From a virus, in IMG/VR virus record IMGVR_UViG_3300044294_000577, positions 1 to 35,273 of that record: a stretch of DNA of 35,273 nucleotides. One strand, 5' to 3'. The position numbers and the translations under genes were made by a program. Below, in pieces: positions 6,749 to 35,273 of the stretch (position 1 is its first letter; the number at the start of each line of letters is the position of its first letter). The notes under the pieces are model-generated. The model was not told the origin of the DNA. It ran no database searches and saw only the letters and a program-made list of their open reading frames with translations.

Positions 6749-7027
6749 CTAGGTTCCCGACGTGGTGGGCGCGCTGGCCTTTGGCTTCAACGCGTGCTGG
6801 TTTCCAACGGCCTCGCAGATGCGTTCCCACGTCGACTGCTCCATGAACCGCCAATGACTGTTTTGTCCCTTGGTTCTGGTATTCGCTCCATCCACCTCGG
6901 CGTATTTTTTTAGCAGGTCCTTCCCGGCGCTGGCGGTGTGCTTGGCGCAGATGAACGGCCTGTCCGGCTTGGTCGGTTTCCCGGTCCGGCGACAGTCGAG
7001 GACGATGCAGCAGGGGTGGTTCGTCAC
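6749..7027 (-). CDS. Small putative zinc-binding phage protein (92 aa)
   Basis: The 92-residue protein begins MTNHPCCIVLDCRRTGKPTK and continues PFICAKHTASA. The cysteines at about 6, 7 and 12 and a later C-x-x-H pair could hold one zinc ion. The rest is basic and helical. The start is a GTG at 7027 that overlaps the stop of the replication gene (GTGA), and the gene is followed 1 base later by the next one. It may be a DNA- or RNA-binding accessory factor, but nothing here proves it. Confidence 0.6.
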   Translation of the reverse strand: MTNHPCCIVLDCRRTGKPTKPDRPFICAKHTASAGKDLLKKYAEVDGANTRTKGQNSHWRFMEQSTWERICEAVGNQHALKPKASAPTTSGT

Positions 7028-8340
7028 GCCGCGACCTCCATCGCCTCGAGCAGCAGATCAACGCCCAGGCGGCTGAACAGCGCGCCGCACTGGCTCCGGA
7101 GGCGGGGGAAGGCCGTGGCCGAGTGGCAGACGATGGTTCGGCCTGGCAGGTCACGCCAGGAGCACGGGTCGAGGTAGGTCCGGGCGAATGTCTCGCCGGC
7201 CTGCTCCCCGGCTGCGCCGCCGCCTCGGGCCACGGCGACATGGGCCACGACATCGCTGCGGATGTCCTCAGGCCCGACCCAGCAGCTGGCGCGCTCGGGC
7301 TCCGGCGCCGAGCCCTTTGGCAGGTGGATCTTCCAATCGCCGCGTTTGAGCCAGGTCACGATCCCAGGCACCGCCCTGCCCTCCCGGGCCTTGGCCGTGG
7401 CTGAGCGGGCGAATTCGCGCACCGCATCCAGCAGTGCGTCCTGCCCGCCGGCCTCCCTGGCGATGTCGGGCCACAGGGCCTCGGCCTGGGCGATCTTGGT
7501 TCGGCCGATCTCGGGGTAGGCGTCGAAGGCTTCCCGAAACCGACTTCCTTCAGGCGGCGCGTCACCCCCCGGCAAGGGGGGTAGGGGGGATAAGATTCTA
7601 TTATGTTCTATTGCGTCCGCACTGCGTTCGCACTGCGTGCGCACCGCGTTCGCAGTGGGTTCGCCCTGCGTCTGCACTGCGTCCGCACCGGGTTCGCGCT
7701 GCGCACGCGGTGCGTCCTGTTCCGCGACGCCCTGCGTCTGCACTGCGAACGCACTGCGTTCATGGTTCGTTCGCGAATGGGCTTCAGCTGGGTCTTCGCC
7801 AGCCTCGCCCCCCTGCTCTGCCTGGGCAACGGCTTCGACCACCGCCGGCTTGGCCAGAACCTTGGCCTTCGGGTTCAGGCGGCGCAGGCGGATGGCGAGA
7901 TCGGCCATCTCGGCCTGAAGGTCACGACCACCGCTCAGGGCTTTTCCCTGACTGGCGTTGCCCTTGGCGCCGGCGGCCTTCATCGTCAGGTGTTCGAGCA
8001 TCTGCTCCAAGGCCTTCTCGGCCACGACGGGGTGATACCAGCGCCCGTCGGCGCAGAGGCAGAACCCGGCCATCACCTCGTCCTTGATCGCCAGCCATTG
8101 ATTCATGGCGCGGCTGAACCCGGCCATGCCGGCCAGTTCGCGATCGTTGTTATCGAGTGAGGCGGCTGGGGTCTGCTGCCATGCGGCGCACCAGAGGATA
8201 ACAGAGGTACGGAACACCTCGGGGTTCTCATGGTTGGCGATGCTGCTGTCGCGCAGGCGCTGGACGTCCAGGAGCATGCTCGGCAGGTGGGCCACGGTGC
8301 TGTCCGGAGGCGTCAGGGGCTGTGGGAGGGGCACGATCAT
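7024..8340 (-). CDS. Phage replication protein with DUF1376-like N-terminus
   Basis: This 438-residue protein is the probable replication initiator. Residues about 20-110 follow the DUF1376/YdaU winged-helix pattern (LPSMLLDVQRLRDS, VILWCAAWQQTPAASLD, WLAIKDEVMAGF, DGRWYHPVVAEKALEQM). Residues about 189-243 are a low-complexity segment with an 11-residue period (ADAVQTQGEPT, ANAVRTQCERS) that is simply the translation of a DNA repeat array. The C-terminal part reads FREAFDAYPEIGRTKIAQAE and ends VTWLKRGDWKIHLP, as in phage O-like proteins. The start ATG follows the dnaB stop directly (TAGATG). DnaB upstream and the internal iterons support a role like lambda O: bind the iterons and load helicase. 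Confidence 0.82.
   Translation of the reverse strand: MIVPLPQPLTPPDSTVAHLPSMLLDVQRLRDSSIANHENPEVFRTSVILWCAAWQQTPAASLDNNDRELAGMAGFSRAMNQWLAIKDEVMAGFCLCADGRWYHPVVAEKALEQMLEHLTMKAAGAKGNASQGKALSGGRDLQAEMADLAIRLRRLNPKAKVLAKPAVVEAVAQAEQGGEAGEDPAEAHSRTNHERSAFAVQTQGVAEQDAPRAQREPGADAVQTQGEPTANAVRTQCERSADAIEHNRILSPLPPLPGGDAPPEGSRFREAFDAYPEIGRTKIAQAEALWPDIAREAGGQDALLDAVREFARSATAKAREGRAVPGIVTWLKRGDWKIHLPKGSAPEPERASCWVGPEDIRSDVVAHVAVARGGGAAGEQAGETFARTYLDPCSWRDLPGRTIVCHSATAFPRLRSQCGALFSRLGVDLLLEAMEVAA
7590..7611. other. AT-rich stretch beside the iterons (candidate DNA unwinding element)
   Basis: Eighteen of 22 bases are A or T in a region otherwise rich in G and C, and TTCTAT occurs twice, 10 bases apart. 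On its left lies a perfect CCCCCC/GGGGGG inverted repeat (7565-7581) and a second G run. Position directly beside the tandem array fits an unwinding element of a replication origin; this is inferred. Confidence 0.55.
7612..7776. repeat. Fifteen tandem 11-bp iterons inside the replication gene (candidate origin)
   Basis: The 165 bases divide exactly into fifteen 11-bp units with consensus TGCGTTCGCAC. Units 1, 2, 3, 6, 7, 12 and 13 are near-perfect; units 4, 5, 8, 9 and 14 are related; 10, 11 and 15 are weak. Each good unit contains the inverted repeat TGCG-N2-CGCA. Because 11 is not a multiple of 3, the reading frame rotates and the protein shows an 11-residue period. A period of 11 bp puts all units on about the same face of the helix. 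In lambda, the origin lies as iterons in gene O next to an AT-rich stretch, and the arrangement here is the same in outline. Confidence 0.8.
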
Positions 8341-11336: not shown

Positions 11337-11668
11337 CGTGCACCGACCGCGCGCTTGCCGCTCTCGGTTTTGAGCAGGCGGGTCATCATCAGACACGACC
11401 CTTCGGTCGTGGCGGCGATGTAGACGACGCCGACCACCGCGATCTTCCAGAGCGCGCCGCTGGTCAGGGCCGGCCAGACCGTGCCCATGATCAGCAGCTG
11501 GGTGATGTACCAGACGCCGTTGGAGGCCCAGGCGGCCCGCCGGTGATAGGCGACGTCACCGCCGTTGCGGCTGCGGCTGACCCAGGTGAAGGCCATGTTC
11601 TGCACGAAGGCCGTCGCGCCGAGGATTGGCAGCAGCGCCCAGAACGGCAGGTGCGACAGGTAGTTCAT
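11333..11668 (-). CDS. Small integral membrane protein with three predicted segments (111 aa)
   Basis: The 111-residue product shows three hydrophobic stretches, at about residues 7-29 (LPFWALLPILGATAFVQNM), 47-68 (WASNGVWYITQLLIMGTVW) and 73-95 (LWKIAVVGVVYIAATTEGS), with short charged loops and a basic C-terminus. It begins with an ATGA overlap with the DndC-like gene and ends with one into the zinc-site gene, so it is firmly in the operon. I cannot name it. A small membrane protein among replication genes might anchor replication or affect the host membrane. Confidence 0.7.
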   Translation of the reverse strand: MNYLSHLPFWALLPILGATAFVQNMAFTWVSRSRNGGDVAYHRRAAWASNGVWYITQLLIMGTVWPALTSGALWKIAVVGVVYIAATTEGSCLMMTRLLKTESGKRAVGAR

Positions 11669-12948
11669 GACCCGAAAATCCCTAGAAGCGGTTGAACGGA
11701 GCCGTCGGCGTAGACGGCGGGCATGGGCGTATCGGCGCGCGGCTCGTCGCCGGCCCAGCCGTTCGGCCAGGTCTTGGCGGCTATCAGCTCGCGGATGCGC
11801 GCCTCTTCCTCGGCGTTGAGCATGTCGACGCCCGGCCGGCCGAGCACGGCGGCGGCCTCGTTGACTTCACGCTGGATGGTCAGGATCGCTTCCAGGGCCC
11901 AGAGGCGCGCTTCAAAGGTGAGCGGGCCCATGCGCTGCTTGTTCTTGGCCTTGGCGATCGAGCCGTCCGCGTTGATGCCCGTCTTCTTCAGCCGGTTTCG
12001 AGGCAGTCGGAGAGCACGGTAGACGGCCTTGATCCGCAGCAGCGGCCGGAGATGATCCCAACCGGGCATGGCGACGATGGCCGCCAGGGCCTTATCCTTG
12101 TCGACAAGCGGACAGCCGATGCAGCCGGTGCGGGCATTGATCTCTTCTGCTTCGTCACCGCCGTAGGCGTCGGCCAGGATCGCCGTAGGCCAGGCGCCGT
12201 ACTGCTGCATCGGCGCAAAGATCTTCAGCCAGTCCCACACCGAGCAGACCCGCCAGTGCAGCAGGGGCGCGAGCGTGGCGATGCGGCCGTTCACCGCCTT
12301 CGATTCCGGCAGGACCTGCTGATACCAGCCCTGGCCGCACTCACCGCCGTCCTTCGAGCAGGACATCGCGATCCGAGCGTCCCGAACAGCGCTCTCGCCC
12401 TGACGGACGCCCGTGATCATCAGGATGTTGCCGTCGATCTCCTCTATGCGGGGGATCAAGGCCGCCGCCATGGGCTCGACCTTGATTTGGCCCGTGCACC
12501 AGCGGAACGTGTTGCTAGGGGGCGGGACGCCACGGCCGAGGATGTAGACCAAGAAGCGGTCGTCGATGGGCGCCATGACGACCTCGACCCGGATCCCCAG
12601 ATCGCGCAGCTTTGCGATGATCAGGTTTGCTGCAGCCTGTAGCGGCGGCAGCTCCTGGCGCGTGTCGGCGTAGAAGATCGTCAGCGACTTCGGCGGCTTC
12701 AGCAGGCCAGCCGCGATGAAGTAGACGATCAGGGTCAAGATCGCGGTGCTGTCTTTGCCGCCCGACCATGCGAGCGCCCAGTGTTCGTGCTCGGCGCCGT
12801 ACTGCTGCAACGAGGCGAGAGTCATGGCCGCGGCGTCGCCCACGGGCAGCCGGTCGGCCGCGCCCGTGAGCAGGTCCGTCCTGATGCGACGCGGCTTATC
12901 CCCGGCCAGCGCCGACGAAACAGCGTTCATTTCTCCGAATGAGTTCAA
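11665..12948 (-). CDS. PP-loop ATPase of the PAPS reductase/DndC-like family
   Basis: This 427-residue protein carries the PP-loop SGGKDS (62-67), which adenylates a substrate with ATP. Further family marks are YADTRQELPPL (93-103), FRWCTGQIKVEPM with C151, TGVRQGES (179-186) and TGCIGCPLVDKDKAL with C276 and C279. The arrangement of one Cys plus a later C-x-x-C matches DndC, whose cysteines hold an iron-sulfur cluster for DNA phosphorothioation. No DndA, DndD or DndE gene is visible in this window, so the real substrate is open. The start may be the TTG at 12948, which has GGGGAGG 5 bases upstream and overlaps the primase stop, or the ATG at 12930. Confidence 0.85.
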   Translation of the reverse strand: MNSFGEMNAVSSALAGDKPRRIRTDLLTGAADRLPVGDAAAMTLASLQQYGAEHEHWALAWSGGKDSTAILTLIVYFIAAGLLKPPKSLTIFYADTRQELPPLQAAANLIIAKLRDLGIRVEVVMAPIDDRFLVYILGRGVPPPSNTFRWCTGQIKVEPMAAALIPRIEEIDGNILMITGVRQGESAVRDARIAMSCSKDGGECGQGWYQQVLPESKAVNGRIATLAPLLHWRVCSVWDWLKIFAPMQQYGAWPTAILADAYGGDEAEEINARTGCIGCPLVDKDKALAAIVAMPGWDHLRPLLRIKAVYRALRLPRNRLKKTGINADGSIAKAKNKQRMGPLTFEARLWALEAILTIQREVNEAAAVLGRPGVDMLNAEEEARIRELIAAKTWPNGWAGDEPRADTPMPAVYADGSVQPLLGIFGS

Positions 12949-14561
12949 GCTGCCCTCCCCTGCACCTGGTGCTGGGCGTCGCGGATCTGCTCATCGAGCA
13001 CGGCGCGATCGGCCTTGAGGCGCGCAATGTCGGCGACAGCGCCGGGCGCGCTGAAATCGGCGGCGAGGCCCTCGATCGAGCGGTCCAGATCGTCTCGGGC
13101 CACCAGCAGGTCAGCCAGGCGCGCCTGCTCGTCACTGAGCTTGGGGCTATTGAGCAGGGCCTGGAGCAGCCGCCGGCCGGTGTGGCCGTCGCCGCGCGCC
13201 ATCATCGCAGTGGCGGCCTTCAGGGCGTCCGAGGCGCCCATGACGATCGACGGCCTGGCGTATCGGGCGGAATTGGCGCGCTGCGGCGGTGCGAACATCG
13301 CGTCACAGCGGGCGATCAGCTCGCGGCGATAGGCCTCTGCCAGATCCTTGTCGCGGATGGTGTAGGCCAACTCGCGCAGACGATGGCGCAGGCCCGCCTT
13401 GGCTTCCGGCGTCCTGAACACCTCCGACGAGGTTTCCATGGTCCAGAGCGCGTCGACGAGGGCGACGCTGTCGCGCATCTGCGCCACTACCGCCTCCGGA
13501 CCCTGTTCGCGCAGAACGTCGTCAGGATCCTTGCCGCCCTTGGGCGTTGCGAACCGGAAGCTTCGCCGCGGCTGCAGCAGCGGCAAGGCGCGGTCGATGG
13601 TCCGGCGCGCGGCGCGCTGGCCAGCAGCGTCGCCGTCGAAGCAGAGCGTCGGCTCGGGATGAATGCGCCAGAGGATTTCCATCTGGTCTTCGCCCAGTGC
13701 GGTGCCCATGGCGGCGACGGCCGCCACCCCCGCGCGCTGGCAGGTGATGGCGTCCATGTACCCCTCGACCACCGCCAGCGGCGCGGCGGCGTGGGCCGGC
13801 AGAAGGCGGCGGGCTTCGGCCAGGCCGTAGAGCACCCTCCCCTTGTGAAAGACGCTCGTCTCTGGCCCGTTCAGGTACTTGGCGCGGGCAGCGGGATCGA
13901 GGGCCCGGCCGCCGAAGCTGATCACGCGGCCCTTGCCGTCGGTGATCGGAAACATAACGCGGTTACGGAAGCGGTCGTATGGCGCGCTGCCGTCCTCGGG
14001 GGCGATCAGCAGGCCGGCCTCGACCAGCTCACCCGGGCGCGCGCCCTTGGCGACGAGGTAGTCCTTCAGCGCCGTGCGGCTCTCGGGCGCAAACCCGATG
14101 CGGAACCGGCCCCATTCAGTCGAGGGGAAGCCTCGGCCCGACAGGTAGCGCTGGGCGTCGCCGCCGACCGGGCGGCGCAGCTGGTCCTCGAACCACTTCG
14201 CCGCCAGCTCAAGCCATTCGATCAGACCACCGCGTCGCTTATCCTCGGCAGCTGATCGCGGGTCGTGGACCGGCAGCGCCATGCCCGCCTCGCTGGCCAG
14301 GCGCTCGACCGCCTCGACGAACGTCAGGCTCTCGGTCTCCTGCAGGAAGCTGATGACGTCGCCGTGCTTGCCGCTGGAGAAGCAGTGATAGAACCCCTTC
14401 TCGTCGTTCACGAAGAACGACGGGCTCTTCTCCTTGGCGAAGGGCGAAAGGCCCGCATATTCGCGGCCTTGTCGGCGCAGCTTCACGCTCTTGCCGATCA
14501 GGTCCGAGGGCCGGATCCGCGCCTTCAGCTCGTCCAGAAAGCGTTCGTCGAAGCGGCTCAT
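12945..14561 (-). CDS. dnaG: DNA primase, DnaG family
   Basis: The 538-residue product makes RNA primers for replication. The N-terminal domain aligns with the CHC2 zinc finger, but of its four ligands only C60 remains: the C-P-F-H of E. coli reads SPFA (39-42) and the second cysteine of the C-F-x-C pair is S63 (CFSSGKHGD). The RNA polymerase domain has RVMFPITDGKGRVISFGGR (201-219), and the TOPRIM site has EGYMD (266-270) and DGDAAG (309-314). The C-terminal part is shorter than in host DnaG. I recall the same zinc-finger loss in alphaproteobacterial DnaG, so it probably reflects host descent. It overlaps both neighbours by 4 bases. Confidence 0.93.
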   Translation of the reverse strand: MSRFDERFLDELKARIRPSDLIGKSVKLRRQGREYAGLSPFAKEKSPSFFVNDEKGFYHCFSSGKHGDVISFLQETESLTFVEAVERLASEAGMALPVHDPRSAAEDKRRGGLIEWLELAAKWFEDQLRRPVGGDAQRYLSGRGFPSTEWGRFRIGFAPESRTALKDYLVAKGARPGELVEAGLLIAPEDGSAPYDRFRNRVMFPITDGKGRVISFGGRALDPAARAKYLNGPETSVFHKGRVLYGLAEARRLLPAHAAAPLAVVEGYMDAITCQRAGVAAVAAMGTALGEDQMEILWRIHPEPTLCFDGDAAGQRAARRTIDRALPLLQPRRSFRFATPKGGKDPDDVLREQGPEAVVAQMRDSVALVDALWTMETSSEVFRTPEAKAGLRHRLRELAYTIRDKDLAEAYRRELIARCDAMFAPPQRANSARYARPSIVMGASDALKAATAMMARGDGHTGRRLLQALLNSPKLSDEQARLADLLVARDDLDRSIEGLAADFSAPGAVADIARLKADRAVLDEQIRDAQHQVQGRAA

Positions 14562-17074
14562 GCCGCCGCCCCGACGTCATTGCGCCCTGCGTCAAGCACG
14601 TCGAACAGGGTCGGCTGCGTCACTTCGAACTCGGCGGCCGTCAGGTAGCGCAGGCTGTCGTTGAAGTACTGGGCGTTCAGCTCCGAGCCATAGCCCCGGC
14701 GGCCGTGCGTGACGGCGCGAACCGGCACGGTCCCAATACCTGCGAAGGGGTCATAGACCAGGTCGCCCTTGGCTGAGCAAAAGCGGATCACCCGGTCGAC
14801 GATGTCGATCTGCAGGGGGCAGACGTGCTTCTCTCGGTTGCCCAGCGACTGCTCACTGTTCAGGGTCAGCATACGGACAATGTCAGTCCAGACGAATCCT
14901 GTGGGCGATTCCAGCGAAAGGGCGGCAAAGGTCTTGGGCAGGGCGTTACGCGCCGCCAAGGCTTCGGCGAGGCGGACATGCTCCTCGTGGTCGTAGACCA
15001 CCCGGCCGGACTGCTCGCGGAAGGCGCGTTGCAGCTGTTTGGGCGGAAGGGCCGCCAGCTCTTCGGCGGTCAAGTAACGATCACCGCCGCTGCGCCAGTA
15101 TGCCGCCGCGTCCACCTGCCATCGCGCTAGGCTGTACTCGTCCAGGGACTTGGTGACCGGATCGTCGGCATAGCCGCGAGAAAGGTCAGTCTGCGCCTTG
15201 CGGAAGAAGAGGACGTACTCTGGCGAACCCGAACCCATCTTGGTGGCGTCTTTGCGCATTTCGGAATAGCCGAGCCGGTAGGTCTGGTTGTTCTCCCGCA
15301 CGACGTCGGTCTCGACGGGACGCACGGCCATGAGGTGGAAGCCATGCCGGCGGTAGTGGGCGATGCAGTCGGCATGGAACGGGTCGACGGTGGGGAACCC
15401 CAAGCCGGTGACCGCGCCGAACTGGATCCGATCCTTGACGTGGACCGCCAGGACCCGGCCGGGCTTCAGGATCCTCAACAGCTCCGGCGTCAGGTAGTCG
15501 AGCTGGTCGAAGAACGCGGCGTTGTCGCGGTTGTGGCCGAAGTCGTTGTAGCTCTCGCAGTACTCGTACTGCGTCCCAAAGGGGATCGACGTCAGGATCA
15601 GGCCGACATGGTCGCTCGGCAGGCGCCGAGCCTCGTCGACGCAGTCGTTATGGACGGCGGTCCAGCGCTCGCCAGCCTCCTCGCGGCGCGTGACGCCGAT
15701 GCTACGGCGCATCGTCTCCACCGCGGCGATCCGACCGAGGCCGTACTTGCGGATGATGTCCGTCATCACGGCCCGCAGCTCGATGTCGCGGGCCCACTTC
15801 TCTTCCAGGTTCCGGCGTTGCTCGCGTTCGGTCTCGGCGTAGATGATGTCGATGATCACCCGGTGGGCCTGGCCGAAGCGCTGGATCCGGTGGATTGCCT
15901 GGATGAAGTCGCGGAACTTTGGCCCGATGCCGGCGAAGATCGCCCGATGGCAGTGGCGCTGCAGGTTGCCGCCGGCGCCGAGCATGACGGGCTTGGCGGC
16001 TAGGTCGGTGAGATCACCGTTCTTGAAATCCCGCAGGATCTGGTCGCGCTCGTCCAGCTCCTGGGTCCCGTAGATGGCCTTAGCCGACGGGACGGCCTTG
16101 GTGATCGCCTCGCGCTCCGCCTCGAGGTCATGCCAGAGGATGAAGTGGTTCCCCGGCTCGGCCTCGCGCAGCTCCTTCATCTTGGCGATGCGGGCACCCA
16201 GCGTGTCCCGCTTCTCGCGGGCCGCCTCCTGCAAGCCGATAGCGGCGTCGCGCAGCAGCTTCATCTGGCCGCGCGCGTCCGTGCCGGCGTCCGTGATGTC
16301 CGCCCGCACCTCGTGCCAGCGGACCTCCAGCTCCGGCAGGTCGTAGCCCTCGTCGCTGAAGCCCAGGTCGGACGGCTTCTGAAGGAAGATCGCCCAAGTG
16401 GACACCCAGAGCCAGAATTCCTCTTCCTTGTGCGGGTACAGGGTCAGGTCACCCGCCTTCTCGGCGTTGCGCTGGAAGAACCGGGTCAGGGCCTGGCCGG
16501 TGTCCATGGCGCCGAGGAAGCCGGCGTAGTGAATCAGCTCCTTGTAGCGGTTCGGCGACGGCGTGGCCGTGGCCACGAAGCGGAACGGCACGTCGGCGAA
16601 GGCCGGCAGGAACTCCTGGAAGGTCTTCGACCCGTAGGAGCGGAGCACGTCCGCCTCGTCCAGGCTGGCGAAGATGAAGCGACTGGGCGTAACCTTGCCC
16701 TCGCGCACGCTCTCATAGTTGGTCAGATGCAGCTTGCCCGGCTGGATCTCAGCGTCGGTCTGGATGAACACGAGCTCGATGCCCATGGTCGCGGCGTCGT
16801 CGAAAAACTCCTGGCGTACGCCCAGCGGAGCCACGATCAGGCCTTCGCCGGCCTGGCGCATCAGGACCTGCCGGCCGCTCTCCAGCTGCATCGACGTCTT
16901 GTGCAGGCCGTAGCTGGTGAAGTAGGCGCGGCAGCCGCCGGCCAGGCCCCACTGGACGATCGCCTTACAGTGCGGCTTGAGCCAAGGATGCAGCTCGTCG
17001 ATCTCGACGTGGAAGCCGGTCGTCGGCGCGGCGATCGCCTTGTCCTCGAGAAACTTCAGATAGGGGTCAGTCAC
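14558..17074 (-). CDS. SNF2-like helicase fused to a DNA methyltransferase
   Basis: One continuous frame of 838 residues joins two enzymes. Residues about 1-440 are an SF2/SNF2-type motor: motif I reads SYGLHKTS (54-61) instead of the usual TGLGKT, motif II is DEAD (139-142), motif III ATATP (168-172), and motif VI IHRIQRFGQAHR (394-405). Residues about 465-838 are a beta-type amino-methyltransferase: the catalytic motif reads TSIPFG (495-500) where N4/N6 enzymes usually have SPPY or DPPY, and the AdoMet site DPFAGIGT (775-782) comes last. In phage P1, DarB is also a methylase-helicase and protects against restriction, so anti-restriction is a reasonable guess. Overlaps of 4 bases lie at both ends. 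Confidence 0.88.
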   Translation of the reverse strand: MTDPYLKFLEDKAIAAPTTGFHVEIDELHPWLKPHCKAIVQWGLAGGCRAYFTSYGLHKTSMQLESGRQVLMRQAGEGLIVAPLGVRQEFFDDAATMGIELVFIQTDAEIQPGKLHLTNYESVREGKVTPSRFIFASLDEADVLRSYGSKTFQEFLPAFADVPFRFVATATPSPNRYKELIHYAGFLGAMDTGQALTRFFQRNAEKAGDLTLYPHKEEEFWLWVSTWAIFLQKPSDLGFSDEGYDLPELEVRWHEVRADITDAGTDARGQMKLLRDAAIGLQEAAREKRDTLGARIAKMKELREAEPGNHFILWHDLEAEREAITKAVPSAKAIYGTQELDERDQILRDFKNGDLTDLAAKPVMLGAGGNLQRHCHRAIFAGIGPKFRDFIQAIHRIQRFGQAHRVIIDIIYAETEREQRRNLEEKWARDIELRAVMTDIIRKYGLGRIAAVETMRRSIGVTRREEAGERWTAVHNDCVDEARRLPSDHVGLILTSIPFGTQYEYCESYNDFGHNRDNAAFFDQLDYLTPELLRILKPGRVLAVHVKDRIQFGAVTGLGFPTVDPFHADCIAHYRRHGFHLMAVRPVETDVVRENNQTYRLGYSEMRKDATKMGSGSPEYVLFFRKAQTDLSRGYADDPVTKSLDEYSLARWQVDAAAYWRSGGDRYLTAEELAALPPKQLQRAFREQSGRVVYDHEEHVRLAEALAARNALPKTFAALSLESPTGFVWTDIVRMLTLNSEQSLGNREKHVCPLQIDIVDRVIRFCSAKGDLVYDPFAGIGTVPVRAVTHGRRGYGSELNAQYFNDSLRYLTAAEFEVTQPTLFDVLDAGRNDVGAAA

Positions 17075-22302: not shown

Positions 22303-22743
22303 TTAGCCCGCCACGCTCGAGGGCGTCAGCGACATGGCGGCGTCGTAGGCGCGTTGGGCGACGTCGAGCTGCTCGCGGGCGGATTCCTGCGTCGCGCGGA
22401 TCTCTCCAGCGTCGCGTTTACCGTCGGCGTCCATGTCATGAACGAGGCGCAAGGTCTTGGCGCTGGTGGCCACGGAGGCGACCACCGCCGCGGCGATCTC
22501 GTTGTGCTGCTCGCCCTCGATAGCGCGGGTGGCCGGGCCGGTCACAAGCGCGAGGCCGGCATGCTCCTGCAGCAGCAGGATCGACATGAAGGGCATCACG
22601 TCGGCGTGGCCGATGTTTTGGTACTTCGACACCTGCTGGTGGCTCACCTCCAGCATGGTGGCGACGGGAACCACCCCGCCGGCCGCCTTAATCAGCTGGC
22701 GCGTGAAAGCCTTCACCTCTTCGAAGGTCAGGGCGCGGCTCAT
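22303..22743 (-). CDS. HTH regulator, first gene of the leftward replication operon (146 aa)
   Basis: The 146-residue product opens SRALTFEEVKAFTRQLIKAA, then GGVVPVATMLEVSHQQVSKY and QNIGHADVMPFMSILLLQEH (residues about 20-60). This is a helix-turn-helix like those of phage early regulators that read A-x-x-L-x-V-S-x-Q-x-V-S. The second half is helical. GAGG lies 8 bases before the ATG at 22743. Being first in the operon, it may regulate the operon itself. An inverted repeat ATTGC-N7-GCAAT lies 60-76 bases upstream (22803-22819) and is a possible site. Confidence 0.7.
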   Translation of the reverse strand: MSRALTFEEVKAFTRQLIKAAGGVVPVATMLEVSHQQVSKYQNIGHADVMPFMSILLLQEHAGLALVTGPATRAIEGEQHNEIAAAVVASVATSAKTLRLVHDMDADGKRDAGEIRATQESAREQLDVAQRAYDAAMSLTPSSVAG

Positions 22744-22802
22744 GCGAGAACCTCGTTATGGTTTGGGGTGAGCCGCCGGACGGTCCAATCGGCGGTTGCA
22801 CG

Positions 22803-22819
22803 ATTGCGAACTTTGCAAT
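22803..22819. promoter_or_regulatory. Inverted repeat upstream of the HTH regulator gene
   Basis: ATTGC-N7-GCAAT is a perfect 5-bp inverted repeat, with another TTGCA just to its left (TTGCACGA). It lies 60-76 bases before the HTH gene start and may be its own operator. Confidence 0.35.
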
Positions 22820-23097
22820 GCGCGCCCGCGAGGCCGGCGGTGGCATGGTCGGCGACATGGGAACGCCAGACGACATTCGAGGAACGACCACCGGCAAAAG
22901 GATCCCGGCGCGCGCTGCGAACGGCGCCGGGACAAGTCTGGTGGGAAGCGCCCCTCAGGGCTTCGCGGAAGCGGCGCGAGATCCACGATTCGCGGACAGC
23001 CTCATTCCGATGTTCATATTCGTTAACATCGCTGCGACCGTAATTGACGGAGTCATCCCGACGAATCGCCCCCACAAACGCAAAGGTGGTGGGGTTG

Positions 23098-23286
23098 ATG
23101 GTCTCGAAGCAAAAAACCGACGAAACGGTGCGATTATCACACGCGGAGCGGGTGAAGTGCCGGCAAGAGCGCATCCAGGACCTGGCGACGCTAAGCCAAG
23201 AAACTCGGCGCGGAGCGTATGCGCGAAGCTGGATCCTTGCGGGCTGCAAGGCGTGCGGCCGTTGCGCGGACATGGCGACCGGCTGA
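23098..23286 (+). CDS. Possible small Cys-containing protein (62 aa), doubtful
   Basis: From the ATG at 23098 the frame gives 62 residues, VSKQKTDETVRLSHAERVKC, with a basic middle and a C-terminal CKACGRC that could hold zinc. A GGTGG-rich stretch precedes the ATG. The frame ends 5 bases before the stop of the convergent Cro-like gene. A TTGACG with two GANTC sites lies 31-54 bases upstream, as expected of a GcrA-type promoter. I do not recognise the family, and it may be chance. Confidence 0.35.
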   Translation: MVSKQKTDETVRLSHAERVKCRQERIQDLATLSQETRRGAYARSWILAGCKACGRCADMATG

Positions 23287-23290
23287 CGCA

Positions 23291-23533
23291 TCAAGCTGCC
23301 TCGCATTGCGGGCGGGGTACATCGGCCGGCCAAATCGCGGAGGCTGGCCAGTTCTCGGAGAACCAAGCCATGACGGCGTCGTACTTTCGCGCGGTGAAGG
23401 TGGTCGCGTCCAACCTGTCAAAGAAGCGACTGTCCCCGGCGGCGAGCCGCGAAACCGTGCTCAGCTCAAGCGCCTTCGCCGCACAGAACGCGCGGGCCGT
23501 GGAGGTCAGATGATGGCGCAAGTCAGCTTCCAT
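23291..23533 (-). CDS. Cro-like or excisionase-like small phage protein (80 aa)
   Basis: This 80-residue protein reads as a helix-turn-helix followed by a tryptophan-rich tail: TARAFCAAKALELSTVSRLA, AGDSRFFDRLDATTFTARKY, then DAVMAWFSENWPASAIWPAD. I recall the same FF-x-x-L and WFSxxWP pattern in small proteins encoded beside repressors in rhizobial and caulobacterial prophages. Its promoter region contains operator 1 between TTGACT and TATCGT, so it should be the first gene turned off by the repressor and may act like Cro. No other gene overlaps it convincingly, although a plus-strand frame crosses it. Confidence 0.72.
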   Translation of the reverse strand: MEADLRHHLTSTARAFCAAKALELSTVSRLAAGDSRFFDRLDATTFTARKYDAVMAWFSENWPASAIWPADVPRPQCEAA

Positions 23534-23539
23534 GAGCAG

Positions 23540-23570
23540 AACGATAGTGGGATATTTCCCACTCAGTCAA
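23540..23570 (-). promoter_or_regulatory. Leftward early promoter overlapped by operator 1
   Basis: Read leftwards, TTGACT (23570-23565) is a good -35 and TATCGT (about 23546-23541) a weak -10 with an 18-base spacer. Operator 1 fills the spacer, so repressor binding would block RNA polymerase. It would drive the Cro-like gene at 23533 and possibly the operon beyond. Confidence 0.6.
23546..23563. promoter_or_regulatory. Repressor operator 1 (perfect palindrome)
   Basis: AGTGGGATATTTCCCACT is a perfect palindrome of 7-bp arms around TATT. The identical 18-mer in the other orientation occurs at 25202-25219. Repressor gene and both promoters are adjacent, so this is very likely its main site. 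Confidence 0.78.
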
Positions 23571-23586
23571 ATGGAAACTTCCAACT
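23569..23586. promoter_or_regulatory. Weak repressor operator between 1 and 2
   Basis: AAATGGAAACTTCCAACT matches operator 1 at 12 of 18 positions with the same GG-N6-CC core. Its centre is 23 bp from that of operator 1, close to the spacing of lambda operators, so it could bind a second dimer cooperatively. Confidence 0.45.
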
Positions 23587-23603
23587 TTGGTTTACCTCAG
23601 GTC

Positions 23604-23621
23604 GGTCGGATATTTCCGACA
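23604..23621. promoter_or_regulatory. Repressor operator 2, abutting the repressor start codon
   Basis: GGTCGGATATTTCCGACA keeps the GTCGGA/TCCGAC arms and the TATT centre and matches operator 1 at 14 of 18 positions. It ends on the first base of the preferred repressor ATG (23621), so binding here would shut off repressor synthesis itself. Confidence 0.65.
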
Positions 23622-24274
23622 TGGCCAAGGACCTTGCGGATCTTGTGAGCGAGCGCCTCGAAGCGCTGGGCATCAACGCGTTCGAGGCAGCGCGGCGGAT
23701 GGGCAAGAAGACCGACCGCCACTACGTCCACGACATCATCAATCGGAAGAAACGAAGCGTCCGGAGCGATAAGCTCCCCTTGCTGGCCAGCGCGCTGCAG
23801 ATGACCCCTGCTGAGCTGGGCACTCCAGGCTCACCGCCGCCAACCAACGTTTTCACTGTGCCGATTGTCGGGCGCGTCGGCGATCGCGTTGACGGATCCG
23901 TGCTTCCAGCCGAGGCCGGCTCCGCGCCGCCACTACCAGGCTCTGATAGAGAAACAGTCGCGGTCGAAGTTGGTGCGCAACTGCATGATTTTGCCGAAGA
24001 AGGATCGCTCCTCTACTTCGGCTATAAGTCCAGTTGCCCTGACCAGGAATACCTAGATCATCTCGTCCTTGTGCAACTGAAGAACAGCCCCCAGCCCGTG
24101 GTCGCGCGCCTGCTTCGCGGCTCTAGGCCGGAGCACTATGACGTGGCGCCATGGATCGGCCCGAAGCGTCGGGATGAGGCTGTCGAGTGGGTGTACGAGT
24201 ATTTGGGCCACCTCTCCGCCAAGCAAGTCGAGCGGATGCCTAAGCCGGTCACCGATCCTGCCAAGCTGAGCTAG
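23621..24274 (+). CDS. CI-like phage repressor with S24 peptidase-type C-terminus
   Basis: From the ATG at 23621 the product is 217 residues. The N-terminal DNA-binding part is MAKDLADLVSERLEALGINA, then FEAARRMGKKTDRHYVHDII (about residues 1-45), a lambda-repressor-like helix-turn-helix. The C-terminal part (PIVGRVGDRVDGSVLPAE, then EGSLLYFGYKSSCPDQEYLD, LVLVQLKNSPQPVVARLLRG) has the sheet pattern of the LexA/CI dimerisation domain. Expected S-x-x-P and K catalytic residues are not clear, so it may not self-cleave. No ribosome binding site precedes this ATG, as if leaderless. A start at 23510 or 23513 with a strong GGAGG is an alternative, but it would run through the operators. It ends 3 bases from the convergent immunity gene. 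Confidence 0.82.
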   Translation: MAKDLADLVSERLEALGINAFEAARRMGKKTDRHYVHDIINRKKRSVRSDKLPLLASALQMTPAELGTPGSPPPTNVFTVPIVGRVGDRVDGSVLPAEAGSAPPLPGSDRETVAVEVGAQLHDFAEEGSLLYFGYKSSCPDQEYLDHLVLVQLKNSPQPVVARLLRGSRPEHYDVAPWIGPKRRDEAVEWVYEYLGHLSAKQVERMPKPVTDPAKLS

Positions 24275-24277
24275 GCG

Positions 24278-25084
24278 TCACATCGGCTGAAGAAATTCGC
24301 CCGCAACCGATACCGTCGTTGCTCGGACGCAAGAACTGCTCAGCACATCCTCGCAAGTCACCTTCACGTGCATCCAGCCATTTGCCGTGGGGGTTTTGAT
24401 TTGGCAGGTGACGATGTGCTCCAGCTCACCAGCCACCAAATGGGGATCGTCGCCGATAACGACGGATACGTTCCGTCCCCGCTTGAATAGCCTCGGGACC
24501 TGACTTGTCCCGACCGCGCAAACATTCACCAACTCGAACTGACTGTCCAAATACGCTGGAACTTTGGGCTCTTCGTTGGCCGAAAAGCTGTCTCGGGCTG
24601 ATACGACGATAGATCCTATCGCGAGAAGCGCGATCGGGACCACCGCAACCAGAATAACCAGGTCGCCCTTCGACTTCTTCCGAGGGCCCGCAGACGCAGC
24701 TTGCTCTGGAACCACCGGCTCTGAGACCGGATCGCGCGGCGCGCTCCCGCCACCCTGGGCAAGCACAGTCGCCTTCTGAGCCGCGAACTCATCTTCCGTC
24801 AAAGCGCCTGAGGCGCGCAGCGCGGCCAAGCGCTCCAGGGCGGCCAAACTGTCCGGCGCAGCAGCGGAGGTAGAGGGCTGCAAGCCTGCCGGCGAAGGTC
24901 TGTCTTGCGCAGCAAAGGCCCAGACCATGGCAATGACCCACCCGACCAATGTCCAACCGGCCAGGAGATTGAGCACTAGGATAGCGGCGGTCTGCCGGTG
25001 GGAACGAAGCGCCGCTACAATCGATGGCGCGAAATACAGAGCTAGCAGGAACAGTCCAACTAGCGCGCCAATACCTTCGTCCAT
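24278..25084 (-). CDS. Superinfection immunity-type membrane protein with SHOCT domain
   Basis: The 268-residue product starts with two membrane helices (GALVGLFLLALYFAPSIVAA, about 6-26, and AILVLNLLAGWTLVGWVIAM, about 34-57) matching the superinfection immunity (Imm) family pattern Y-F-x-P-S-I-x-A-x-x-R-x-H-R and N-x-x-x-G-W-T-x-x-G-W. A SHOCT motif follows (LAALERLAALRASGALTEDE, about 80-108), then a Lys-rich turn, a third membrane helix (DLVILVAVVPIALLAIGSIV, about 141-163) and a 105-residue extracytoplasmic tail with four Cys. Imm of T4 blocks DNA entry of related phages. It lies between the repressor and the right operators, convergent with the repressor, so it may be expressed in lysogens. 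Confidence 0.8.
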   Translation of the reverse strand: MDEGIGALVGLFLLALYFAPSIVAALRSHRQTAAILVLNLLAGWTLVGWVIAMVWAFAAQDRPSPAGLQPSTSAAAPDSLAALERLAALRASGALTEDEFAAQKATVLAQGGGSAPRDPVSEPVVPEQAASAGPRKKSKGDLVILVAVVPIALLAIGSIVVSARDSFSANEEPKVPAYLDSQFELVNVCAVGTSQVPRLFKRGRNVSVVIGDDPHLVAGELEHIVTCQIKTPTANGWMHVKVTCEDVLSSSCVRATTVSVAGEFLQPM

Positions 25085-25172
25085 CGCTGCACCCCATTGC
25101 TACTTATGAGGATCGCACGCCAACAGCGCATCGTCTGGTTGGAAAGCTCCCGCTATTGCCGAGTCGCGGGAT

Positions 25173-25190
25173 CGTGGGTTTTTTCCCACT
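25173..25190. promoter_or_regulatory. Repressor operator, imperfect copy at the right promoter
   Basis: CGTGGGTTTTTTCCCACT keeps the GTGGG-N6-CCCAC core with a T6 centre. Its centre is 29 bp from that of the perfect operator to the right. It lies just upstream of the TTGACA of the rightward promoter. A GAGTC (GANTC) site is 8 bases to its left (25161-25165). Confidence 0.55.
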
Positions 25191-25196
25191 ACCTCG

Positions 25197-25225
25197 TTGA
25201 CAGTGGGAAATATCCCACTTAGCGT
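25197..25225 (+). promoter_or_regulatory. Rightward early promoter overlapped by an operator
   Basis: TTGACA at 25197-25202 is a perfect -35. A 17-base spacer leads to TAGCGT (25220-25225), a weak -10. The 18-bp operator at 25202-25219 fills the spacer. It would drive the rightward operon starting at 25255. Confidence 0.7.
25202..25219. promoter_or_regulatory. Repressor operator 3, exact copy of operator 1 at the right promoter
   Basis: AGTGGGAAATATCCCACT is the exact reverse complement of operator 1, 1.65 kb away. An 18-base identity between two promoter regions in one window is not expected by chance and shows one regulator controls both arms. Confidence 0.8.
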
Positions 25226-25254
25226 TTGGACCGTCCACCACGACGGAGCCGACG

Positions 25255-25377
25255 ATGCGGCAGCCCATCATCCCCCCCGACCAGAGCCCGGCTCAGCCTA
25301 CGGGTATTGAGCCTGGCTGGCTGCTGGTTGTTGTCGGCGCTGTCGTGGTGGCGCTGGCGCAATGGGCGGGCCTGTGA
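25255..25377 (+). CDS. Tiny single-pass membrane protein, first gene of the rightward operon (40 aa)
   Basis: Forty residues: a proline-rich start (MRQPIIPPDQSPAQPTGIEP) and one membrane helix (GWLLVVVGAVVVALAQWAGL). GGAG lies 6 bases before the ATG, and the stop overlaps the next start (TGATG). It is the first coding sequence after the rightward promoter, so it should be made early in induction. Function unknown. Confidence 0.6.
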   Translation: MRQPIIPPDQSPAQPTGIEPGWLLVVVGAVVVALAQWAGL

Positions 25378-25592
25378 TGGGCCGGGCGTCGACACGGATC
25401 GACATGGCGCTTGGCCATCTGGCCAAAGGCCCAGCGACCGGCGCGCAGCTGGCCGATGTTCTGTGCACCCACACCGGCGATATCGCTCGCATGATGAGCC
25501 AGCTGGTCGAGAAGGGGCGCGTGCGCCGCATCGACGGCGGCTCTGGGCGCGGATCGGTTGCGATCTACGCCCTGCCCCACCCTCACATCTGA
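25377..25592 (+). CDS. Small winged-helix DNA-binding protein (71 aa)
   Basis: From the ATG at 25377 the product has 71 residues, GRASTRIDMALGHLAKGPAT, then GAQLADVLCTHTGDIARMMS and QLVEKGRVRRIDGGSGRGSV. This is a compact winged helix like those of MarR or FaeA-type regulators. The start overlaps the stop of the previous gene. It may regulate the rightward operon or bind near the switch; no evidence beyond the fold. Confidence 0.7.
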   Translation: MGRASTRIDMALGHLAKGPATGAQLADVLCTHTGDIARMMSQLVEKGRVRRIDGGSGRGSVAIYALPHPHI

Positions 25593-25600
25593 GAGACGCC

Positions 25601-26315
<715 letters not shown>

Positions 26316-27538: not shown

Positions 27539-27913
27539 ATGGCCAGCGCTAAATCACCCACTCCCCTGGAGCCTCGTCGCGCCGCAAAGGCCCGGGCGAC
27601 GCGTGAGCAACTCGTCGCCGTCGCGCGGCGCCTTTTCGAGGCTCGTGGGTACGATTCCATCACGGTCCGCGACATCGCCGTCGCGGCCGGTCTTTCCACC
27701 GGCGCCATCTTCTCCGGCTTTTCGGACAAGGGCGACCTGTTCAAGGCCGCCTTCCCCACTGACCACCAGCAGCGACGCGTGGCGGAGGCGATGTGCAACG
27801 CCTACTACGCCGCGAGCGTCTGGGCCGCTGGCTCTTCAGCGCTGCGCGACCGCTGGCTTGCGGCAGCGGCCGACGCCCTGGCCCGACCTTCGATCGCCAC
27901 GAGGGCCGCATGA
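27539..27913 (+). CDS. TetR-type DNA-binding protein with shortened C-terminus (124 aa)
   Basis: Residues about 18-72 are a TetR helix-turn-helix: RATREQLVAVARRLFEARGY, then DSITVRDIAVAAGLSTGAIF and SGFSDKGDLFKAAF. The family usually has about 190-210 residues with a ligand-binding core of six helices. Here only about 50 residues follow (RVAEAMCNAYYAASVWAAGS, ALRDRWLAAAADALAR), so the ligand domain is nearly absent. It may be a stripped DNA-binding module that dimerises by two helices. GAGGA lies 6 bases before the ATG. It overlaps the next gene by 4 bases. Confidence 0.8.
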   Translation: MASAKSPTPLEPRRAAKARATREQLVAVARRLFEARGYDSITVRDIAVAAGLSTGAIFSGFSDKGDLFKAAFPTDHQQRRVAEAMCNAYYAASVWAAGSSALRDRWLAAAADALARPSIATRAA

Positions 27914-34037: not shown

Positions 34038-35273
34038 ATGGGACACGTCCAGAAATTCACCGGCCAGCCACGTAAGGACGGGTCCGCCACGATGAAATGG
34101 CGCGCCGCGGGCAAGAACGCCCACGGCAAGCGCGTCTCGAAGGTCTTCGATAAGAAGGGTGACGCGCAGACTTGGCTTCGCGAGGTCGAAAGCGCGCGCA
34201 TCGTCGGTTCAGCGCAAAAGACCTTGCTCGACGTCGCCGAGGCGCACTATCGGCATTTCGACGGCTTGGTGAAGGCAGGAGCGCGCGAGGCGGTCACCCG
34301 AGACGGCTATGCCACCGCGATCGAGCGGCACCTGAAGGCTGATCCTGGCTTTTGCGCTATCAAGCTCGCAGACCTCACCACACCACGGGTGCAGAGCTTC
34401 CTAGACGATCTGTTCGTCCGCACCGGTTCGCTCGATCTCACGAGGCGCATGCGGCGGGTGATGGTGACGTGGTGCGACTTCGCAGTCCGCAAGGGCGATC
34501 TGGTCATGAACCCTGCGAGCGCGTGCAAGGTTGAGACCACCGCCCGGCCCGACGAGGGAGAGGATCAGGTCGACATCCCATCCAAGGACGTGCTGGCCAG
34601 CCTGCTGCGTGCCGCGACTGAGGGGTCAGATCCCGAGCGCGATGCGGCGGCAGTGCATATCCTGCTCTTCGGCGGACTGCGAATCTCAGAAATGCTCGGC
34701 TTGGCGGATGACGCCGCGACGGTCAGCAAGACCGGCGGCGAGCTGCGTGTGCGTGAACGCCTGGACCGCCACTACGAGATTATCGGCAAGGTTAAGACCA
34801 AGCGCGCACGCCGCGACATCCCTATCGGCCCTGCAGCTGGCGCAGCCGTCAAGGCCTGGCGGCTACGCCGGGGCCCGGCCGCCGCTTTCATGCACCACAG
34901 CCATGGAACCGAGCGATCCATGAAGTCCGGGCGCCTCTTCCCCCATCCGGACGGACGGCCTGTCTGGGGCTATCTCGACTTCATGCGGCAGTGCTGGCTG
35001 CCCTTGATGCGCCGCGCTGGTCTGGTGACCATGGAGCTTGACGCCAGGGGCAAGAATCGTCCGGTGCAGGCGTTTGGTCCGCACACCCTCCGTCACGCTG
35101 CGGTCAGCCTGTGGATCGCCCAGGGCCTGTCGCCCAAGCGTGTTCAAGAACTGGCGGGTCACTCGGGCCTGCAGATGACCATGGACCTCTACGGACATCT
35201 CTGGCGCGACGCTGAGAGCGATGCCGATCTGGCGAAGCGGTCGGAAGCCATGCTGCTGGGCCGGAACACCTGA
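34038..35273 (+). CDS. int: Tyrosine recombinase, phage integrase
   Basis: The 411-residue product inserts and removes the phage. It has an arm-binding N-terminus with SATMKWRAAGKNAHGKRVSK, a core-binding region (about 60-170) and the catalytic domain: R215 in GGLRISEM, K in the KVKTKRARRDIP hairpin (about 241-252), H349 and R352 in HTLRHAAVS, H375 in LAGHSG and Y385 in MDLYGHL, so the full R-K-H-R-H-Y set is present. It ends exactly at the window edge. No tRNA or attachment site is visible; attP should lie just beyond. No clear ribosome binding site precedes the ATG. Confidence 0.95.
   Translation: MGHVQKFTGQPRKDGSATMKWRAAGKNAHGKRVSKVFDKKGDAQTWLREVESARIVGSAQKTLLDVAEAHYRHFDGLVKAGAREAVTRDGYATAIERHLKADPGFCAIKLADLTTPRVQSFLDDLFVRTGSLDLTRRMRRVMVTWCDFAVRKGDLVMNPASACKVETTARPDEGEDQVDIPSKDVLASLLRAATEGSDPERDAAAVHILLFGGLRISEMLGLADDAATVSKTGGELRVRERLDRHYEIIGKVKTKRARRDIPIGPAAGAAVKAWRLRRGPAAAFMHHSHGTERSMKSGRLFPHPDGRPVWGYLDFMRQCWLPLMRRAGLVTMELDARGKNRPVQAFGPHTLRHAAVSLWIAQGLSPKRVQELAGHSGLQMTMDLYGHLWRDAESDADLAKRSEAMLLGRNT

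Follow-up and report, generated by a model that had tools for sequence, protein, structure and literature searches.

The stretch of DNA analysed here, referred to as the window, is the IMG/VR virus record IMGVR_UViG_3300044294_000577 over its full 35,273 bases, and it may itself be a fragment. We describe its immunity region, in which a repressor gene and a superinfection immunity homologue lie between two clusters of predicted operators, three sites on the left and two on the right. This region is very probably the lambda-like two-armed switch of a temperate phage, in which the repressor is opposed by a Cro analogue of the protein family PHROG 7669. Lengths of proteins are given in amino acids (aa), and HTH stands for helix-turn-helix.

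23291-23533, minus strand: 80-aa Cro-like protein, first gene of the leftward arm, ATG at 23533 (PHROG 7669, E 1.5e-21)
23541-23570, minus strand: predicted leftward early promoter TTGACT-N18-TATCGT, from the promoter scan; it contains site A, and 7 nt separate the end of its -10 from the cro-like ATG
23546-23563: operator A (strong), in the -35/-10 spacer of the leftward cro-like promoter
23569-23586: operator B (weak), 23 bp from A
23587-23614, plus strand: weak candidate repressor promoter TTGGTT-N16-GATATT, read by eye; its -10 lies within operator C, 6 nt before the ATG
23604-23621: operator C, abutting or overlapping the repressor ATG and covering the putative repressor -10
23621-24274, plus strand: repressor, 217 aa, with a lambda-type HTH and a LexA/S24-like C-terminal domain without Ser/Lys
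24278-25084, minus strand: superinfection immunity homologue, 268 aa (PF14373, E 1e-16, and a SHOCT domain)
25173-25190: far operator, inner (weaker)
25197-25225, plus strand: putative rightward promoter TTGACA-N17-TAGCGT, read from the sequence; the outer far operator fills its spacer
25202-25219: far operator, outer (strong), in the -35/-10 spacer of the putative rightward promoter

Predicted operator sites and gene layout in the window

The 18-mer AGTGGGATATTTCCCACT at 23546-23563 (plus strand) returns as its exact reverse complement at 25202-25219. This repeat had been pointed out in the initial annotation of the sequence, and it holds, as do the three related sites listed there, which were found at 23569, 23604 and 25173. 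With up to three mismatches allowed, the 18-mer has five strand-wise matches, corresponding to three places, and none in 100 dinucleotide shuffles. When a matrix built from all five sites was run over the window, the sites scored 25.9, 25.9, 23.0, 20.5 and 17.4 bits and were the top five places, the next best place reaching 10.5 bits. The same matrix gave a mean maximum of 12.1 bits in 100 shuffled windows with a largest value of 19.9 bits, so that the weakest site (23569-23586, 17.4 bits) is not individually beyond chance. The real length of the operator motif is about 16 bp. Its description as an 18-bp palindrome is right as to the repeat and the near-symmetry, but the 18-mer differs from its own reverse complement at two positions, both central, and is an imperfect palindrome. 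GG-N6-CC, which had been offered as the common rule of the sites, is too loose and was dropped for want of enrichment, as even GGG-N6-CCC, the form tested, has 18 occurrences where 20.1 would be expected. Beyond the five sites the 35-kb record, which is possibly a fragment, gave none that exceeds the shuffles, such as stoperators of the mycobacteriophage type would provide. The SOS box GTTC-N7-GTTC has three matches in the window, none of them near the switch, and 7 of 100 shuffles reach three.

The left cluster, with A at 23546, B at 23569 and C at 23604, sits between divergent genes, the repressor gene on the plus strand and the 80-aa gene on the minus strand. A promoter scan of 22700-25700 gave the leftward promoter as its sole sigma-70-like site, where 0.6 were expected; terminator-like sites near the switch occurred at chance level only. 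From the left cluster a leftward gene run reaches primase, DnaB helicase and large terminase genes, and from the right cluster a rightward run extends to the end of the record, where its last gene encodes a tyrosine integrase. These long opposite gene runs, together with promoter-like elements that straddle the strong site of each cluster, bear out the earlier proposal of two arms served by two predicted promoters. At the level of sequence, the predicted operators overlap the promoter-like elements of the two early arms as well as that of the repressor. Because of the gene layout around both clusters, the left cluster is, as far as layout can tell, the equivalent of lambda OR, with the cro-like gene and the putative repressor promoter, and the right pair is the equivalent of OL, on the integrase side.

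The placement of the repressor gene and an immunity gene between the clusters, also noted before, is confirmed by the PF14373 match. The immunity gene is convergent with the repressor gene, and the slot that holds it varies among relatives from -7 to 2410 bp. Judged by its domain match and this variable slot, it is a real superinfection immunity homologue but a variable passenger, not a conserved part of the switch.

Recurrence of the layout in relatives

A tblastn search with the 80-aa protein returned 14 phage records, and nine named records were fetched. The Cro-like gene is divergent from its neighbour in all nine, the neighbour being annotated as a repressor or regulator in five and as hypothetical in four. 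A search with an 11-member alignment found 99 viral loci, 80 of which were kept. Together with the window and the nine named phages these make 90 loci, which fall into 61 clusters by identity of the Cro-like protein. Three clusters had too little upstream DNA, 11 had no operator triple, and 47 were tested for the layout. The test used a symmetric matrix made from the three proximal sites only, so that no far sequence entered the training; the search windows for A, B and C had been fixed after a free search. The far pair was then sought 350-4000 bp upstream as two sites 24-36 bp apart, with 300 Markov shuffles as control.

In 35 of the 47 clusters the far pair scores above every one of the 300 shuffles. 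It outscores the equal-length stretch on the Cro side (downstream) in 45 of 46, and no Cro-side stretch beats its own shuffles. The spacings are regular in the positive clusters: 28-32 bp within the far pair in 32 of 35, 22-24 from A to B in 25 of 35, and 33-36 from B to C in 26 of 35. The distance to the far pair ranges from about 0.4 to 3.2 kb across clusters, and the half-site core takes 16 different forms among the relatives. The motif of a phage scores 36.6 bits on average on its own far pair, whereas the motifs of other phages score 16.0. The initial annotation had proposed to look for the motif beside the repressor genes of relatives; it is the layout that recurs there, but the sequence of the sites changes. 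Twenty loci were obtained from cellular genomes, one of them without a triple, and 12 of the remaining 19 pass the far-pair test; among cellular loci with a cro gene new to the viral set, 7 of 13 pass. Hosts of the passing loci include Chelatococcus, Phyllobacterium, Agrobacterium, Mesorhizobium, Devosia, Methylobacterium and Bartonella.

Across the 35 positive clusters the sites keep their places relative to genes and promoters. The equivalent of site A starts 25-32 bp before the cro ATG, leaving a gap of 9-16 nt, and a Shine-Dalgarno-like word precedes the ATG in only 3 of 35; the short gap and the rarity of this word suggest that the cro messages are leaderless. The repressor start is within 0-5 nt of site C in 30 of 35. 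In all 35, a -35 element (TTGAC or TTGC, a pattern picked after the aligned sites had been viewed) stands just upstream of the outer far site on the outward strand; the strict form TTGAC does so in 28 of 35. At the inner far site or on the opposite strands the pattern was found in 0 of 35, and strict TTGAC likewise in 0 of 35 at each control position.

With the exact 18-mer as query, five viral contigs (L004-L008) were retrieved. In L004, L007 and L008 more sites accompany it, and its neighbours are a repressor-like gene and a short divergent gene of the 80-aa type. L007, whose repressor is 34% identical, carries the same 3+2 sites. In the low-similarity contigs L004 and L008 the sites are at -28, -58 and -93 of the small divergent gene, which matches PHROG 7669 in L004, the only one of these tested; a weaker pair 34 bp apart lies about 0.6 kb upstream, observed without a shuffle comparison. 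The motif had been taken as this phage's own, a view that the sites in L007 and a close likeness in Agrobacterium phage Rivra contradict. In L005 and L006 the 18-mer stands alone, without further sites nearby, and looks like a chance occurrence. We also observed four loci (L049, L051, L053, L055) with CGGTAA-type operators and divergent 'repressors' of 128-138 aa without a recognisable S24 domain, in which the 3+2 layout is kept.

Co-variation of the sites with the two regulators

The sequence distance between far pairs was compared with protein distances (Mantel r, 5000 permutations) over 36 loci, namely 30 of the 35 positives (five with a repressor open reading frame (ORF) below 190 aa were omitted) and six of the seven new cellular loci, L102 being left out as a near copy of L024. 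The far pair correlates with the repressor N-terminal domain at r 0.63 and with the Cro-like protein at r 0.76, values reached in 0 of 5000 permutations each, and with the repressor C-terminal domain at r -0.04. Linkage alone would favour the C-terminal domain, because its DNA lies between that of the N-terminal domain and the far pair. The spread of C-terminal distances is comparable to that of the N-terminal ones (standard deviations 0.092 and 0.099). The values were nearly unchanged when the set was thinned to 29 loci (0.59 for the N-terminal domain, 0.74 for the Cro-like protein, -0.10 for the C-terminal domain), and pairwise alignments instead gave 0.59, 0.72 and -0.07. L043 and L073 provide a single example: they share 61% of the C-terminal domain and only 36% of the N-terminal domain, and their operators differ. 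With the N-terminal domain held constant, the partial r of the Cro-like protein with the operators (A and the far pair) is 0.61. Sites, layout, recurrence, -35 elements and the co-variation of operators with both proteins were all computed directly. The far pair thus tracks the repressor N-terminal domain and the Cro-like protein and not the C-terminal domain, and both proteins probably read all five sites.

The repressor and the Cro-like protein

The repressor family profile matches the lambda repressor 3bdn over both domains (5e-14), and also LexA. In the model of the window repressor (predicted local distance difference test, pLDDT, 88) an HTH is followed by a beta-rich C-terminal domain; the HTH superposes on the 434, P22 and SinR domains at 1.4-1.9 Å. 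The best full-length Foldseek match, LexA 3jso, is poor (template modelling score 0.36); domains free to move relative to each other could account for this. Peptidase_S24 is matched by 33 of 36 repressor family members, and the window repressor on its own gives no match. Gln and Ala occupy its catalytic columns, where 53 of 66 aligned operator-family repressors keep both Ser and Lys. Given the loss of this dyad, classical SOS self-cleavage is unlikely. The window repressor is probably without self-cleavage, and induction of the prophage would probably need a route other than RecA-stimulated autocleavage, for example an antirepressor or loss of the repressor.

Used alone as query, the repressor found no relative in viral contigs and none in plasmids, and against phages it gave one weak match, over residues 1-66 only. 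Among genomes of the family to which the Asticcacaulis locus L113 belongs, 67 of 299 contain a match to the repressor, nearly always through its C-terminal half, and regulators from these genomes are its closest C-terminal relatives among what was searched. All 30 of these C-terminal relatives that were fetched keep both Ser and Lys, so the loss is particular to the window repressor or to an unsampled branch. No Cro-like gene was found within about 1.5 kb of these 30 loci, which are therefore relatives of the repressor C-terminal domain and not of the switch; the 18-mer with at most one mismatch occurs in 0 of the 299 genomes. The repressor looks chimeric, in that residues 1-66 resemble a protein of Microcystis phage Mae-JY30 and residues from about 67 to 205 resemble the regulator of that host family.

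The PHROG 7669 profile is matched by 47 of 47 members of the Cro-like alignment A4. The model of the 80-aa protein has four helices (pLDDT 87). From its place and its co-variation with the sites, the PHROG 7669 protein is probably the Cro of this switch.

Comparison with known switches

In the lambda immunity region, the repressor gene cI and the lysogenic gene rex lie between OL and the OR-cro side, so that a repressor and a lysogenic gene stand between two operator clusters. Cro is divergent, the operators lie inside the early promoters and over the repressor's own promoter, and the repressor combines an HTH with a LexA-like domain. The window resembles lambda in having a repressor and a lysogenic gene between the clusters, a divergent Cro-like gene, and operators in the putative early promoters. 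It differs in having 3+2 instead of 3+3 sites, with another motif and other spacings; its Cro analogue comes from another protein family, PHROG 7669, its immunity gene is opposed to the repressor gene instead of co-transcribed, and its repressor is without the self-cleavage dyad. The initial annotation had compared the region with lambda as a switch with separated operators, and this stands in principle and recurs in relatives, but it was incomplete, the 80-aa Cro-like gene having been overlooked.

The immC region of Rhizobium phage 16-3, also an alphaproteobacterial phage, is similar in that its c gene lies between OL and OR and its OL2, according to the annotation of the record, is between -35 and -10 of PL, like the outer far site here. 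Unlike the 3+2 sites of the window, 16-3 has OL1/OL2 at PL and OR1/OR2 at PR/Pc, hence 2+2, and its operators are of another type, ACAA-N4/6-TTGT. A PHROG 7669 gene was not found in phage 16-3 (tblastn, E 0.01).

The nearest cases are found among the relatives. IMGVR_UViG_3300012865_000003 (L007, L042) has the same 3+2 layout with near-identical sites, and in Agrobacterium phage Rivra the CI gene has a PHROG 7669 gene next to it, the sites are likewise of the AGTGGGA kind, and the far pair is present. Both differ from the window in having other genes or none between the repressor and the far pair. Ser/Lys is retained in the repressors of L042 and L026 (same cluster as Rivra), unlike in the window repressor. 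The fetched stretch of Rivra contains no operator annotation. Sinorhizobium phage phiLM21 likewise has a divergent repressor and Cro-like gene; this Cro-like protein looks unrelated by eye and had no match in the Cro-family search, and phiLM21 was rejected as a member as the layout test gave no operator triple. In titles and abstracts of the open literature, with subscription journals mostly outside this scope, we did not recognise the layout, and PHROG 7669 was not named.

Proposed mechanism and alternatives

In a lysogen, repressor on A and B would switch off the leftward early promoter, and with it the cro-like gene and then the replication and terminase genes, and repressor on the far pair would switch off the rightward promoter with the integrase-side genes. 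At higher repressor levels C would be bound as well, covering the repressor's own putative -10 and start codon and so limiting its own synthesis. The 80-aa protein would act as the Cro analogue: it would be first made in the lytic direction, read the same five sites and block repressor synthesis. What we infer from the computed features is binding, the order in which the sites fill, cooperativity or looping, the leaderless nature of the transcripts, and what each of the two proteins does.

Several observations weigh against this two-armed switch. Site B of the window is weak and is supported by its position, not by its score. The rightward -10 (TAGCGT) is poor, and the rightward promoter stays below the threshold of the promoter scan. 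No far pair was detectable in 12 of the 47 testable clusters (L016, L018, L019, L028, L032, L044, L057, L058, L064, L070, L078 and L091), 11 more have no proximal triple, and 7 of 19 cellular loci fail the far-pair test. Close pairs of loci are alike in all parts, so part of the correlation reflects shared descent. Finally, the best fold matches of the Cro-like protein are XRE-type HTH proteins but are weak (best Z 5.4), a list that may leave room for known Cro folds, and a search for sequence relatives of its family in the PDB gave chance-level rows only.

The last point, taken with the listing of PHROG 7669 as of unknown function, would fit an arrangement in which the repressor alone reads the five sites and the 80-aa protein is an unrelated early protein, for instance an antirepressor or a host-takeover factor. 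We regard this as unlikely. The Cro-like protein predicts the far operators better than the repressor N-terminal domain does and keeps its correlation when that domain is held constant; its gene is the first divergent one, in cro position, and its four-helix model finds its best matches among XRE-type DNA-binding domains. The clusters without a detectable far pair, and the varying distance to the pair in the others, could instead mean that the left cluster alone is the switch and that the far pair serves a different regulator as its control site or is the remnant of a duplication. Such a separate origin is very improbable, since far and left motifs match within each phage while the motif differs between phages, the -35 is always at the outer site, and Rhizobium phage 16-3 has annotated OL and OR flanking its repressor gene. 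Even the two lone copies in L005 and L006 do little for the idea that the repeated 18-mer is chance or a mobile repeat without a regulatory role: none is expected in the window, three of the five contigs (L004, L007, L008) carry it at the same place with further sites, and we consider this explanation next to impossible. The two-armed switch with a repressor and a PHROG 7669 Cro analogue is the reading that we retain.

Neighbouring genes and other observations

Further regulators and ORFs flank the switch, and the rightward arm ends with the integrase.

22303-22743, minus strand: second regulator-like protein of the leftward arm, 146 aa, with weak YdaS/P22 Cro similarity below the cut-off
25255-25377, plus strand: first small ORF of the rightward arm, 40 aa
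25362-25592, plus strand: winged-HTH-like ORF of the rightward arm, 76 aa (sub-threshold matches)
34038-35273, plus strand: tyrosine integrase, end of the rightward arm (PF00589, E 5.6e-14)

Also in the rightward arm, a 124-aa protein (27539-27913) contains a TetR-type DNA-binding domain (PF00440, E 2.4e-14), to our knowledge an unusual find in a phage, and the hexamer ACGCCG is repeated 12.5 times in the gene region at 26103-26176. In the leftward arm, an imperfect tandem array at 7612-7759, with the 11-base unit TGCGTCCGCAC in about 13.5 copies and 68% matches, lies inside the gene at 7024-8340, which encodes a DUF1376-like protein; the array could be iteron-like. A PAPS-reductase-domain protein is encoded among the replication genes (11665-12948), and similar annotations occur near the switches of Rivra and RHph_N3_2. 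An 838-aa protein (14558-17074) joins a helicase-like half to an N6/N4 DNA methylase. In two of the named phages a tRNA gene directly follows the Cro-like gene, tRNA-Leu in Rivra (L009 4264-4339) and tRNA-Met in RR1-A (L015 4269-4345).

Significance

What is added by these data, as far as sequence analysis reaches, is a probable new Cro family at the OR equivalent and a five-site chassis that recurs with changing specificity in many alphaproteobacterial phages. On balance we lean, with some reserve, towards a wider interpretation. A widespread, unannotated class of alphaproteobacterial switches would share a fixed chassis of five operators, with a far pair about 30 bp apart and a PHROG 7669 Cro. 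Repressor N-terminal domain, Cro and operators would change specificity together, and the C-terminal domain would be swapped independently. The window would then be a chimera, with a C-terminal domain like the regulator of one host family, dead for self-cleavage, and with induction uncoupled from classical SOS.

PMC12429752 reports that phiLM21-like prophages yielded no operators of the lambda or 16-3 kind, and PMC4729917 that operator prediction failed for Brucella phage BiPBO1. The sites described here would give operator predictions for a phage group in a field in which, according to both papers, operators went unfound. phiLM21-like prophages and BiPBO1 may themselves lie outside this switch class; the BiPBO1 record was absent from the matches of three tblastn searches with Cro-family members, and no further membership test was made. 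A phage family of unknown function, PHROG 7669, obtains a likely function as Cro. Dozens of natural trios of repressor, Cro and operators, with 16 half-site cores, would moreover provide data on how such proteins choose their DNA and on the origin of immunity groups.

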